This document shows positions 49,847 to 56,527 of a DNA stretch of 64,000 nucleotides, piece by piece. How positions within the stretch are numbered: position 1 is the stretch's first letter; each line of letters begins with the position of its first letter. Origin of the DNA: Spirochaetales bacterium (GTDB lineage: Bacteria; Spirochaetota; Spirochaetia; Treponematales; UBA12059); the NCBI GenBank assembly GCA_016926955.1, contig JAFGNN010000030.1, forward strand, positions 1 through 64,000, in the 5' to 3' direction. Position numbers and translations under genes: made by a program. The notes beneath the pieces are model-generated. The model worked only from the letters and a program-made list of their open reading frames with translations. It was not told the origin of the DNA and searched no databases.

Positions 49847-50848
49847 ATGAGCGGCATCATGTTCGATCTGGCGAGCTTCGAGGCGTTGACCCAGGCCCAG
49901 CCCTGGGCTCGCTTCGCCGCCCAGGAGCGTGGCTTGTTCGGCGCCGCTGTCGCTGGCGCCGGCCTTGAAACGGCGCGACGCGCATCGATTGGCTCTTCAC
50001 TCATGCTCGAGTTGCTCGAAGCCCTGCGCGCCTGGCCCGGGACGGCGATCGCGAGCCACAAGAGCCCCGAGCAGGCATTCCACAAGCTGGCCTTCGCCGC
50101 CGAACTCGGCCTGCGCCGCGGCGACCACGGTGTGGACGATATCGCAGAATCCGTGATGTCGCGGGTTTCCGAGGAGGGACCGTTCACGCTGCCTTCGAAG
50201 GTGTCCGCCGCCCACGGCGGCTCTGGCGAGGAAACGCGCGGCTGGGCGCTTTGCGACGCGCCCGTCATCCTCCGCGCCCTGGTCCGCATGGGCTACGGCG
50301 ACGATCCGCGGGTCGCTCGCGCCATCGATTTCCTGGTTCCGCTCGCGCGGGAGAACGGCTACCCCTGCGCGGTGTCCTCGACCTTCGGCGCGTGGCGCGG
50401 GCCGGGCAAGAAATCCGACCCGTGCCCCTACGCGACGCTCGTCATGCTGGAACTGCTCCTCGAGCTGCCCGGGCGTCGCGAAGGAGCCGAAGCACGCGCC
50501 GCGGCCGAATGCCTGCTCCGGCTCCGGGAGCGCAGCCGCGAGGAGCACCCGTACATCTTCTACATGGGCGACGACTTCCGGAAGCTCAAGGCGCCGCTCA
50601 TCTGGTACGACCTGGTCCACGTGCTCGAAACGCTCTCGAAGGCGCCGTGGATCAGGGGAGACGCGCGGCTCGAGTCGATGCTCGACGTCCTCGAGTCCAA
50701 GGCCGGCCCAGGCGGCCTCTTCACGCCCGAGTCCGCGTACCAAGCCTGGAAGGCGTACGACTTCGGGCAGAAGAAGCTTCCCTCCGTCTACCTGAGCGCG
50801 GTTGCGCTGGGCATCCTGAAGCGTAGTGGGCGCCTTGTCGAGGACTGA
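49847..50848 (+). CDS. Hypothetical protein, alpha/alpha-barrel (prenyltransferase/squalene-cyclase-like) fold suspected
   Basis: Repeated helical pattern with DAPVILRALVRMGYGDDPRVARAIDFLVPLARENGYPCAVSS...PYATLVMLELLLELP. Confidence 0.5.
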   Translation: MSGIMFDLASFEALTQAQPWARFAAQERGLFGAAVAGAGLETARRASIGSSLMLELLEALRAWPGTAIASHKSPEQAFHKLAFAAELGLRRGDHGVDDIAESVMSRVSEEGPFTLPSKVSAAHGGSGEETRGWALCDAPVILRALVRMGYGDDPRVARAIDFLVPLARENGYPCAVSSTFGAWRGPGKKSDPCPYATLVMLELLLELPGRREGAEARAAAECLLRLRERSREEHPYIFYMGDDFRKLKAPLIWYDLVHVLETLSKAPWIRGDARLESMLDVLESKAGPGGLFTPESAYQAWKAYDFGQKKLPSVYLSAVALGILKRSGRLVED

Positions 50849-50939: not shown

Positions 50940-51136
50940 GGAACGCGACGAGCGCGGTTTCCCATGACGCAGAAGTTCTCGAGCCGGAAGTCGTACCGCT
51001 TCTTCGCCCGCCGGAGCGTCCGGATGAAGAGCGCCTTCATGGCGGCGCCTTCCATCACCAGCTCCTTGCGGTCCGCGCGGGCGGCGAGGTGGTTGAGGGC
51101 TCCGTCCCGCAGCAGGCGTGGCTTGCGCATGCGCAT
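50940..51136 (-). pseudogene. REP-associated tyrosine transposase (RAYT, Y1_Tnp) remnant
   Basis: MRMRKPRLLRDGALNHLAARADRKELVMEG...LFIRTLRRAKKRYDFRLENFCVMGN resembles the RAYT N-terminus; the expected HxHxL after MGN is lost. Confidence 0.7.
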
Positions 51137-51406
51137 TCAACGCCGCGAAGCCAACACGTCGCTTGCGCGGGAACGATAAAAGCGCCGTCTTCGTTGCTGG
51201 CAGTTCTGTGCCCATGGGACTGATCCGATCATCGATGCGCAGTATCCAATCCCGGCAAGCTCTGTCTTCTCCATGAGCTGGATCCCCACAAAATGTATAG
51301 GAAATTATGCATGGATACATGGCAGGCGTGCATATCGATTTTTCTTGCCCCCCCCCATTTTGTGCTAGAAACCAGCGGGCCCCAAAATTCATACTGAGGA
51401 AGTGCT

Positions 51407-51431
51407 ATGAAAGTTATCGACAGCGGTATTG
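51407..51431 (+). pseudogene. 5' stub of a gene cut by the IS21-family element
   Basis: GAGGAAGTGCT-ATGAAAGTTATCGACAGCGGTATTG: clear RBS and ATG in AT-rich DNA abutting the IS end; frame stops soon after entering the IS. Confidence 0.5.
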
Positions 51432-51498
51432 TGTCAACACCGATTTAGTTTTTCCGCTTTTCACCGATTTCAGCTTTCCGCTTTTCGGCGCGGATTTC

Positions 51499-52272
51499 TT
51501 ACTCGAAGCCGACGGCTCCGATCTTCATCCTGTTCTTCATACGGTATGACTCGGCCTTCAGGCTGAAGACTTGGGAGTGGTGGAGGAGACGGTCCAGCAT
51601 AGCCACCGCGACGGCCTCGTCGGACATGAACTCAGCCCATTTGGCGAAGCTCCGGTTCGAGGTCATGATAATTGGTGCGACTTCGTAGCGCGCGTTGACG
51701 AGCTGGAAGAAGACATGGGCCTGTTCCGCGTTGAGCGGCTCGTGCCCGACCTCGTCGATCATGAGGACGTGGGGCTTGCGGAACCAGGCAAGCGCCTTGC
51801 GGAGCCGGTTCTGCTCCCGGGCTCGGAGCAGTCGCTCGATGGCGTCGCGGGCGGTGATGTAATAGGCGGTATAGCCCGAAACGCAAGCCTTCTGGCCGAG
51901 GGCAAGCATGAGATGGGTTTTGCCGACCCCGGAAGGCCCGAGGAAGAGGACGTTTTCTTTCCGCTCCACGAACGCGAGGGAGGCGAGTTCCTCGAAGCGG
52001 TTTTGCGGCAACCCGCCCTTGAGCCAGGCGAGGTCGAAATCCTCGAGGCGCTTCGTCTGCGGCATGCCGGACAGCTTGATGCGTGTCCGCGCGGTCCGTT
52101 CCCTCCTGGCCGCGTACTCGATCTCTACGAGGTCCTTGAGGGATTCGACGAGGGTCATGTCGTTCCGGCGAGTGTCGGCGAGGAAGGTCTCGAGCCCCGC
52201 GGACATGAAGGCGAGCCCGAGTTCCTCCATACGCGACGAGAGGGCGGCGACGGCCAGTCCGGTCTCGTTCAT
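51499..52272 (-). CDS. istB: IS21-family helper ATPase IstB
   Basis: FLGPSGVGKTHLMLALGQKACVSGYTAYYITARDAIERLLRA, MIDEVGHEPLNAEQAHVFFQLVNARYE, IMTSNRSFAKWAEFM. Confidence 0.95.
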   Translation of the reverse strand: MNETGLAVAALSSRMEELGLAFMSAGLETFLADTRRNDMTLVESLKDLVEIEYAARRERTARTRIKLSGMPQTKRLEDFDLAWLKGGLPQNRFEELASLAFVERKENVLFLGPSGVGKTHLMLALGQKACVSGYTAYYITARDAIERLLRAREQNRLRKALAWFRKPHVLMIDEVGHEPLNAEQAHVFFQLVNARYEVAPIIMTSNRSFAKWAEFMSDEAVAVAMLDRLLHHSQVFSLKAESYRMKNRMKIGAVGFE

Positions 52273-53528
52273 GCCGGTATACCTTCGCTCGCGTCCATGA
52301 GCCTGGAAAGCGTCTCATAGGCCGAAGCGGACCCTGTCGCTACCTCGATGTCCGACGGCATCGTCCGTCGACGCGGCCTTCGCCGCCTGGCGGTGCGCTC
52401 GCGGTCTTCCCTCCAGCGACGGAGCAACGTCGAGCCGTCACCGGGGAACTCGACACGGGCGTGCGATCCGGCGGCCGCGAGAACGAAGCGCCGGGCGTTT
52501 CCGTCGGGGAACCGCAGTTCGACGTTTCGATTGAGCGGATGCACGAGCAGGCTGACGAGCTCGCCGATCAGCGCGGCGGGCACCGTGTAGCGGTTGCCTT
52601 CGTGGCGGATCGTCCCTTCGCGGCCGACGTGGAGCGGGAGCTCCGTACGCACGTCGAAGTCCGTAGCCGGCAGGCTCTTGAGCTCGGGGCGTTCCCGCTC
52701 GAAGCGCGCGGCCCTGTTTTCCCCGAGGTCGACGATGGTCTTCGAGGATATCGTGTCGATCCAAGCTCCGATCTCGGCGTTGAGGTTTGAGAGCGAGAGT
52801 TCGCGCCCTTCCATGCGGGGCCAGAAGTTGTTGTCGAGATAGCCGATGGTTCGCTCGACCTTGCCTTTGGTTTCCGGCCGTCGGACGCGGCAACGCCGGG
52901 GTGCGAAGCCATAATGCGCCGCGAGCGCGAGCAGCCGCTTCGTCGGTTGCCAGACGCCTTCCGCGTCGGGGGCGAAGGCCGTGCGCATGTTGTCGTAGAG
53001 GATTTCGCAGGGCACGCCGCCGAAACAGTCGAAGGCGAGTACGTGGCAGGCGAGGAGCGTGGCCTGGTCCATCGAGGTGGTGAACCTGACGAACGGCTTC
53101 CTGGAATAGCCGAGCACCATGACGAACGCGTAGAGCTTGGTCAGGCGGCCATCGACAACCTGCTTGCCAAACTCCTTCCAGTCGACCTGGGCTTGCCTAC
53201 CCGGCTCGGTCTCGAAACGGATGGTCGCGGCTTTGGTCACCTTTCGGGTCACCGCCGCGGCGTAGTCCCGCAGGATGGATATCCGGCCCTGGTAACCCTG
53301 CTTCCTGAGGCGTTCGATCAACAGCTCGCGGTTGAGGAAGGGGTTGTCTTCGAGGACGGTGTCGATGAAGCCCTTGAACTCGTCGAGTTTGCTCTTTCGG
53401 ACTCGCTCATGTCGTGGCTCGCCATGGCGTCGCAGGTAATTCCGGACCGTACGGTCGGTGACGCCAAGCGCTTCCGCGATCTCCTTCTGCGTCTTCCCCT
53501 GTTATTGAAGGATCTTCGCCTTCAGCAT
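52269..53528 (-). pseudogene. istA: IS21-family transposase IstA with premature in-frame TAA at codon 9
   Basis: Minus-strand reading MLKAKILQ*QGKTQKEIAEALGVTDRTVRNYLRRHGEPRHERVRKSKLDEF...ERLRKQGYQGRISILRDYAAAV...RFETEPGRQAQVDWKEFG; stop at 53502-53504. Confidence 0.85.
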
Positions 53529-53673
53529 ACAGTGCTCCCTGGTCATGGACGGCTCCTGGTGTTTGGGTGTCTGGCGACTCCATACTACCAAGGACGTCCA
53601 TGGCCTTTTTTGCACCGAAAAGCGGAAAGCCTACATCGGTGATTTCCGGAAAATTAACATCGGTGATGATACA

Positions 53674-54509
53674 GGGGCCTTAAGAGTGACCTGGAAGAGT
53701 CTCACAAGCTGGTCTTCACAATGGTGAGTAATGGTTATCTTTTGGATGTTGACAAGCTGGTATTGTTGGAAGAGTTGGGTTTTTCTTCCATCCAAGTCAC
53801 GATAGACGGGAATGAAGAAGTTCATGATTCAAGAAGAGTTCTTAGGGATGGACGCGGAACGTATAAAAGAATCACGGCAAACCTGGATAGATACCTCATA
53901 TCACACAGGCCGATGAGGATTCATATCAATCTGGTGGTTGATGAAAGCAATGCCGAATCAGCAGTGCGTGAAAAAATGGAACTAGAAGAAAAGTGGCGAG
54001 GGAAAAACGTTTCATTTTACCTTTCTGAAATAACATCCACAAAACATGACGAATACAGCCTTGCGTCTTCAGATACCTATATCAATAATAATCCTGCCGA
54101 GGGTGTCAGCGTTTGTACGTCGCACGGAGATCACAATTTTATAATCGACTTCAAGGGTGATATTTACAAATGTATCACCGGCGCAGGAGATCCGGATTTT
54201 TGTATCGGAAACATAAAAGATGACCTACAGTCGATAAGAGTAGGTCAGGCAAAATACATCGAGCCTCGAAGTAACAACAAAAACTGTTCCAGCTGTGGGT
54301 TTTTACCAGTCTGTAAGCTGGGATGCCAATATTATACGATCAAAAATCCTTTGGCTGAAATCTGCAATAAAGATAAGCTGAAAGAGTACTATTTACATCT
54401 TGTTGCGAGGAAGAATGGAATTAAAGTAACAGAACTTGAGATCGTTGATGATGATGAGACGCGGGAAATCATTGTTGCTAAGACCATTGGGGAGTGGCAA
54501 GAGATATGA
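53674..54509 (+). pseudogene. C-terminal part of a radical SAM/SPASM maturase truncated by the IS21 element
   Basis: Frame open from the IS edge: GLKSDLEESHKLVFTMVSNGYLLDVDKLVLLEELGFSSIQVTIDGNEEVHDSRRVLRDGRGTYKRITANL...CSSCGFLPVCKLGCQYYTIKNPLAEIC (SPASM Cys pattern); N-terminal CxxxCxxC absent. Confidence 0.82.
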
Positions 54510-56248
54510 AATCTGGCATTGCACTCTTGATAAGAACCCTGCGTTTTCTGCTGACAAAAAACCCATGGTCACTTTTTGCGATTTTCATCTTGACTGCTGC
54601 GGAAGGGGCGCTTCCTGCCGTGCTCATACTAATCATGAAGGCGATCATAGACTCGATCGCGCATGGCGGTATGGCGGGATTGCCTGTGCTCGTGGCGCTT
54701 TGGTGCGCGGCGATGGCTGGGCAGTTCGGCATTTCGTTCGTCCTCAGGCGGATTCTTGACGGTTTCATCCTGGCTGCGTCGCATTCGACGAGCACGCTCG
54801 TCATAAGGAAGGGACTCTCTTTAAAGGGGCTCCGCTGCTTCGAGTCGGAAGCGTTCCACTCGATCTACTCGCGCCTGGCGAACACGGACTATCGAGTCGA
54901 AAACTTTGTCAACAACTTCCGCTACCTTTTCAAAAATCTCGTGCAGTTCCTGTCTGTGTTTGCTATCTTTTGGCCGCTCGGTGCATGGATACCACTCGCG
55001 ATCGCCGTTTCAGCCGTGCCCGGCGTCATCGCCTCTACCCGGAACGCTCGGCTCGCGATGGAGCACGAGGACAGCATCGATGGAACACAGCGCCGGGCGG
55101 CGTACTTCCGGAACGCTGTTGTAAGTCCCGCGACGGTGAAGGAAAACCAGATTTTCGGATTTGGCGCACTGCTTTCCAACCGTTACCTTACCGCGCAGAC
55201 AGAACTAAAGCGACGTGCCCTCGCTTATAGCAGCAAGAAAGCGTGGAATGAATTTATCGGAACGCTATTTCGCATCGTCGCCGTGGGATTCATTATGGTT
55301 GGGCTCGCGGATCGAGTGGCAAAAGGCTTGATTTCAGTTGGCCAACTCGCGCTTTTCCTCCAGTCGATCTTTCATTTTTCGACAGCGATGCTCGAGCTGG
55401 TTGAATTTTGGTCGTTCCAAGCACCAGCGCTCCAGTATTTCGCGAAGCTATTTGATTTTTTGGCTACGAAAGACACCTTGGTCCTTCCAATAAACGCAAT
55501 CGTCCTGGATGGTGAAATTGAACGGGTCGAATTCAAGAACGTGTCCTTCGCGTACGAACCGGGACGAGCCGCGCTGTGTGGCGTGAGTTTCACGATCGAG
55601 CGGGGTCAGGCGATTGCACTGGTCGGAGAAAATGGCGCAGGCAAGACAACCATCGTGAAGCTAATTGCGCGACTTTATGACCCTGATTCTGGTGAAATTC
55701 TCGTGAACGGCATCGATCTCAGGAATATCGACGTGGATTTGTGGCGCGCCCGGATTTCCGCCGTGTTTCAAGATTTCGCGCGCTACCACCTGAGTGTGGC
55801 GGAGAATGTATCTCCTGACGGAACAGCGTCGTCCGGCGAATTCTGGAACAAAGGATTCTTGGATCTAGGATTTATTGATGAGTTGCCTGGACGCGGGGAG
55901 GCAACGCTCGGGAAAGAGTTCGGCGGCACCGAGCTCTCGGGTGGCCAGTGGCAGAAGCTCGCTATCGCCCGGGGTCTCGTGAAGCCGCACGAGATCTTGC
56001 TCGTCGACGAGCCGACCGCGAGCATCGATCCGATTCAAGAAGCTGACGTGTATCGCGCGTTGTTCGAGAAGAAGGCTGCTCTTTCCTTGCTCGTGACGCA
56101 TCGGCTCGGCAGTGTGAAGAACGCTGATCACATCCTGGTGCTGAAGGACGGGCGGGTGGTGGAACAGGGGGCGCACGATGAGCTTGTGGCCGCAGGTGGA
56201 TGCTACAAGACGCTTTATGATTCTCAGGCTGGACTCTATAAACAGTAA
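54506..56248 (+). CDS. ABC transporter, fused TM and ATPase domains (exporter type)
   Basis: VALVGENGAGKTTIVKLIARLYDPDSGEILVNGIDLRNID, ELSGGQWQKLAIARGLVKPHEILLVDEPTASIDP; ATGA overlap with the SPASM gene. Confidence 0.92.
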   Translation: MKSGIALLIRTLRFLLTKNPWSLFAIFILTAAEGALPAVLILIMKAIIDSIAHGGMAGLPVLVALWCAAMAGQFGISFVLRRILDGFILAASHSTSTLVIRKGLSLKGLRCFESEAFHSIYSRLANTDYRVENFVNNFRYLFKNLVQFLSVFAIFWPLGAWIPLAIAVSAVPGVIASTRNARLAMEHEDSIDGTQRRAAYFRNAVVSPATVKENQIFGFGALLSNRYLTAQTELKRRALAYSSKKAWNEFIGTLFRIVAVGFIMVGLADRVAKGLISVGQLALFLQSIFHFSTAMLELVEFWSFQAPALQYFAKLFDFLATKDTLVLPINAIVLDGEIERVEFKNVSFAYEPGRAALCGVSFTIERGQAIALVGENGAGKTTIVKLIARLYDPDSGEILVNGIDLRNIDVDLWRARISAVFQDFARYHLSVAENVSPDGTASSGEFWNKGFLDLGFIDELPGRGEATLGKEFGGTELSGGQWQKLAIARGLVKPHEILLVDEPTASIDPIQEADVYRALFEKKAALSLLVTHRLGSVKNADHILVLKDGRVVEQGAHDELVAAGGCYKTLYDSQAGLYKQ

Positions 56249-56527
56249 GCAAGGAATCTGATCGGTTGTTGGCCTGCCGCGAAGCCAAGCGGACGGCGAA
56301 TAGGACCGAAGCGGCCGGGATTAATGGCTCGGCCGCGATGAGATAGTCACACGAGCGACTACGACAATAATTTCCACTCCGAAAACGAGCCGAAGGCTCG
56401 TAGGAAGCGCGACGACGGGCGTGCGAAGCACCCGCCCCAAAAGCGGGAGGCGCGGTCCTCTCCCGTGGGCGCGGCGTGATTGGGCTAACCCGGCCGACGT
56501 TTTTGAGCATACAGGTCGGACGGCGGG

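Follow-up and report, generated by a model that had tools for sequence, protein, structure and literature searches.

Positions 51133 - 56402 of the 64,000-nucleotide stretch of DNA analysed here (the window) make up a variable insertion site that is best understood, with a probability of about 0.78, as holding an acquired RiPP-type islet that was entered by an IS21-type element and later truncated in its maturase gene by deletion or rearrangement. The site is bounded by a conserved gene on the left and by ABC-2 permease genes, and its contents differ among three genomes of the genus. The whole block of stub, IS element, radical-SAM remnant and exporter (Table 1) is missing from two congeners, in which the flanking genes are collinear; at the equivalent site G002 has approximately 430 bp of other sequence, and G001 a longer stretch, also of other content. 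The lower GC of the block relative to its neighbors, remarked upon in the initial annotation, was borne out, with 41% in the radical-SAM part, 55% in the exporter and 48% in the 187 bp left of the IS, against 68 - 70% in the flanking genes. Absence from both congeners, together with this composition, indicates that the radical-SAM and exporter genes came in horizontally, as an islet within intergenic DNA of variable content; because their own GC contents are unequal, the two genes may have had separate origins. The locus belongs to a known kind, of which it is a divergent and decayed example, a relic with only the exporter intact, and decay of this type is ordinary and by itself of little importance.

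Table 1. Features of the islet and its left border (window coordinates)
Feature	Position	Strand	Basis or remark
Conserved gene with no Pfam hit	49847-50848		Left boundary of variable site
Stub: RBS and ATG, MKVIDSGI, ended by left terminus of IS	51407..51431	+	Sequence
IS21-family element	51432..53671	-	Termini compared with related copies
istB, intact, 257 aa	51499..52272	-	PF01695, 240.5 bits
istA frame, in-frame TAA near usual 5' end	52269..53510	-	Pfam and sequence
3' remnant of SPASM radical-SAM peptide maturase gene, 277 codons	53672..54509	+	Open frame from IS edge and NCBIfam
ABC exporter, intact, 580 aa, MsbA/ABCB-like	54506..56248	+	Frame and NBD motifs

To the right of the IS, as first described, a frame is open from the edge of the element into the 3' part of a SPASM enzyme and continues to a TGA at 54507 - 54509. 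The remnant retains the complete seven-cysteine SPASM motif (CX13GX4C ... CX2CX5CX3CX12C) and passes the TIGR04085 SPASM model with 47.0 bits against a cut-off of 27. It aligns only from about position 160 - 170 of maturase models of 438 - 444 residues, such that some 150 N-terminal residues are gone, and the CxxxCxxC radical-SAM cluster motif that they include was found neither in the remnant nor on either flank of the IS. Loss of this motif would leave the enzyme unable to bind the radical-SAM cluster, and the maturase is, as had been proposed on the same grounds, almost certainly inactive in this genome. The best curated models over the surviving part are those of the TIGR04463 (92 bits), CefB (NF038107; 80 bits), geopeptide (78 bits) and Clo7bot (75 bits) SPASM maturases, with which the complete SPASM motif is held in common, followed by dynobactin DynA, FlmE/OhkG and PapB; all of these top seven NCBIfam matches are RiPP (peptide) maturases. 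Unlike the first four of these systems, however, the locus shows no cognate precursor, and the remnant's 75 - 92 bits stand against cut-offs of 400 - 600, a shortfall partly explained by the loss of more than a third of the protein. Since no named-subfamily equivalog cut-off was reached (the best score being 92 bits versus 525), the remnant is assigned to no single subfamily.

The closest relatives of the remnant are only about 31 - 32% identical to it, and in a tree of SPASM enzymes its branch is long and its placement unresolved, so that the type of substrate is not fixed by relationship. Several presumably treponemal clusters within the taxonomic order of the source genome nevertheless contain enzymes of the same broad SPASM group (approximately 28 - 31% identity), and these accompany small proteins with features of RiPP precursors. 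In G635, the neighbors of the SPASM enzyme include a PoyD-type epimerase, which passed its cut-off with 331 bits, and two NHLP-like small proteins, of which the one tested scored 66.6 bits to TIGR03793, also above cut-off; in G671 and G570, it adjoins small proteins with leader ends of the VAGG/VNGG type. These clusters differ from the present locus in having their own precursors and, for G635, the epimerase, whereas no exporter was seen among the genes read beside their radical-SAM genes. The RiPP-type system first proposed is consequently supported at the family level, by the ranking of the models and by the company that relatives keep, but not by a precursor at this locus, since the islet holds no convincing candidate for a precursor gene and the stub is of eight codons only. 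This support does not extend to the sactipeptide- or ranthipeptide-like chemistry also suggested at first, which would place a Cys-to-carbon thioether cross-link on the product. On these similarities, the cassette was probably one for making and exporting a modified small peptide.

The exporter provides the second part of this argument. Its ATG at 54506 overlaps the stop of the radical-SAM gene (ATGA), as had been observed initially, and the overlap suggests coupled expression of the two genes. The protein resembles MsbA/ABCB-type exporters as a 580-residue TMD-NBD half transporter with every NBD motif present (GENGAGKT, LSGGQ, ILLVDE and VTHR, for Walker A, LSGGQ, Walker B and H-loop, respectively), although it scores under equivalog cut-offs. 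A Pfam scan gave no match to a C39 peptidase domain, which at the N-terminus defines the bacteriocin-type, peptidase-containing exporters (PCATs), so leader cleavage would not be a function of this exporter. The adjacency of exporter and maturase is found here and also in plasmid p5 of Sarcina sp. JB2, where a SPASM radical-SAM gene is followed directly by that of an ABC exporter of approximately 560 residues, in the same order; that pair differs in being intact, on a Firmicutes plasmid, and only 28% identical. It might be argued that the SPASM enzyme served instead in a non-peptide or protein-maturing pathway, such as sulfatase maturation, with the exporter an unrelated neighbor. The disparity in GC between the two genes would fit this, the nearest relatives of the exporter (47% and 42% identity) do not adjoin any radical-SAM maturase gene, and an anaerobic sulfatase maturase model also matches the remnant, at 53 bits. 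This model is, however, outscored by all seven RiPP-maturase models, and with the ATGA overlap and the precursors found beside relatives, a non-peptide pathway appears improbable.

The element that separates the stub from the remnant has features common in the IS21 family, with inverted terminal repeats and an istA/istB pair on the minus strand that matched PF01695 (240 bits), rve (52.7 bits) and Mu-transpos_C_2 in Pfam. Its left terminus, TGTCAACACC at 51432, was set by two copies in G011 whose flanks diverge at that point, and its right terminus is GATGATA, in contrast to the GATGACA of three related copies (in G017, in G002 and in a remnant on contig C4). It departs from the family norm in this altered right terminus, in the in-frame stop of istA, and in the lack of a target-site duplication, none being seen around 51432 - 53671, where the two flanks differ. 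The C4 remnant (G000:C4:9704-9869) is a 164-bp right end with 90% identity, found in addition to the one full copy of the element in this genome.

The initial annotation had taken the locus for a simple interruption by the IS, an account that does not fit the missing target-site duplication, the GATGATA terminus, and some 150 residues that lie on neither flank. Taken together, these three observations point to deletion or rearrangement at the right-hand border of the inserted element, by which the maturase was probably truncated, although a single C-to-T change could also account for the altered terminus. The junctions could alternatively have arisen by misassembly, as a chimera in which sequences carrying the IS were joined although they came from separate loci or strains, and the division of the assembly into 94 contigs, the lack of a target-site duplication, and the position of related IS copies at contig ends in relatives (G011, G017 and G001 among them) could be cited in its favor. 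Such a chimera is nonetheless quite unlikely, given that the one full copy of the IS offers no within-genome repeat to mislead an assembly, and that low-GC islet DNA lies on either side of it.

The identity of the stub bears on how much was lost. Its ATG at 51407 is preceded by a good RBS (TGAGGAAGTGCTATG) and, as had been reported, opens a frame of only eight codons (MKVIDSGI) before the IS cuts it. It had been suggested that the stub might be either a precursor leader or the N-terminus of the maturase; the latter would mean that a single gene had lost approximately 150 codons where the element now lies. Stub and remnant are indeed on one strand, flanking the IS, behind an operon-like RBS. 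However, full-length relatives mostly begin with an S-K/R-Y-N motif (as in MYLSKYN, MVPSKYN and MKWSRYN), followed by a YN/FN motif, and although this start is not universal (ORFs of Thermus and G671, as called, begin otherwise), MKVIDSGI does not resemble it. The stub is for this reason more likely to have opened an independent ORF, the first of the operon, and its assignment to the maturase is doubtful. That it began a precursor peptide is possible, but a guess.

The favored course of events, deletion or rearrangement after acquisition, can then be outlined. An islet with a SPASM radical-SAM peptide maturase and an ABC exporter would have been gained horizontally at the variable intergenic site and subsequently entered by the IS21-type element, at whose right-hand border a later event would have removed the front of the maturase and probably also the rest of the operon's first ORF. 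By analogy with their families, the substrate of the intact maturase would have been a ribosomal precursor peptide, modified by cross-linking, and the product would then have crossed the inner membrane through the exporter. At present the enzyme would bind no cluster and no precursor would be left, and the exporter could be the only part of the cassette still able to work.

An intact version in a sister strain and a second, IS-free copy in this genome had both been envisaged, and neither came to light. No second radical-SAM copy is present in the genome, and with the N-terminus of the G409 homologue as query, the only match to the lost half (E 0.009, inside a 395-residue open frame) was not convincing. 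No close homologue was found in the genus genomes examined, in 99 relatives, 393 genomes of the phylum and 394 of the order (overlapping sets), in GTDB r220 searched with peptide patterns, or in viral contigs; a plasmid search gave only matches below 29% identity. When an intact pair was sought by way of the exporter, the nearest exporters stood without radical-SAM maturase genes. No paper combining these elements was found in the literature on treponemal SPASM/ABC RiPPs, and RiPP genes were present in few of the spirochaete genomes surveyed previously (PMC4289311). The locus documents how a probable RiPP cassette was gained and then decayed in a member of an order with treponeme-like relatives, where RiPPs are rarely reported, and the divergence of the enzyme is such that a new subfamily could be defined should an intact relative come to light. 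A more ambitious reading, that the islet is what survives of a RiPP system hitherto undescribed, whose SPASM maturase and peptidase-free exporter formed a subtype of their own, and that the exporter was kept as self-protection after loss of the maturase, is speculative and has a low probability.

Other SPASM loci were noted in the course of these comparisons. Locus L147 (G635:C61, 4280-8703) is a RiPP cluster with a SPASM maturase, a PoyD-type epimerase and NHLP-type precursors having a Cys/Ala-rich core (ACGAKGCGANACAG), and L146 (G671:C223, 3707-6695) is RiPP-like, with two small proteins that bear the leader-like ends LENVVGG and LESVAGG, a 271-residue protein and a SPASM radical-SAM enzyme. 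In G120, a 39-residue Cys-rich peptide (CCSTAGTTVAQCC), matched by no NCBIfam model, lies within a module of SAM methyltransferase, SPASM radical-SAM enzyme and thioredoxin/thioredoxin-reductase fusion; this module (L104, 4565-7991, and in part L106, L107, L108 and L109) recurs in the phylum.
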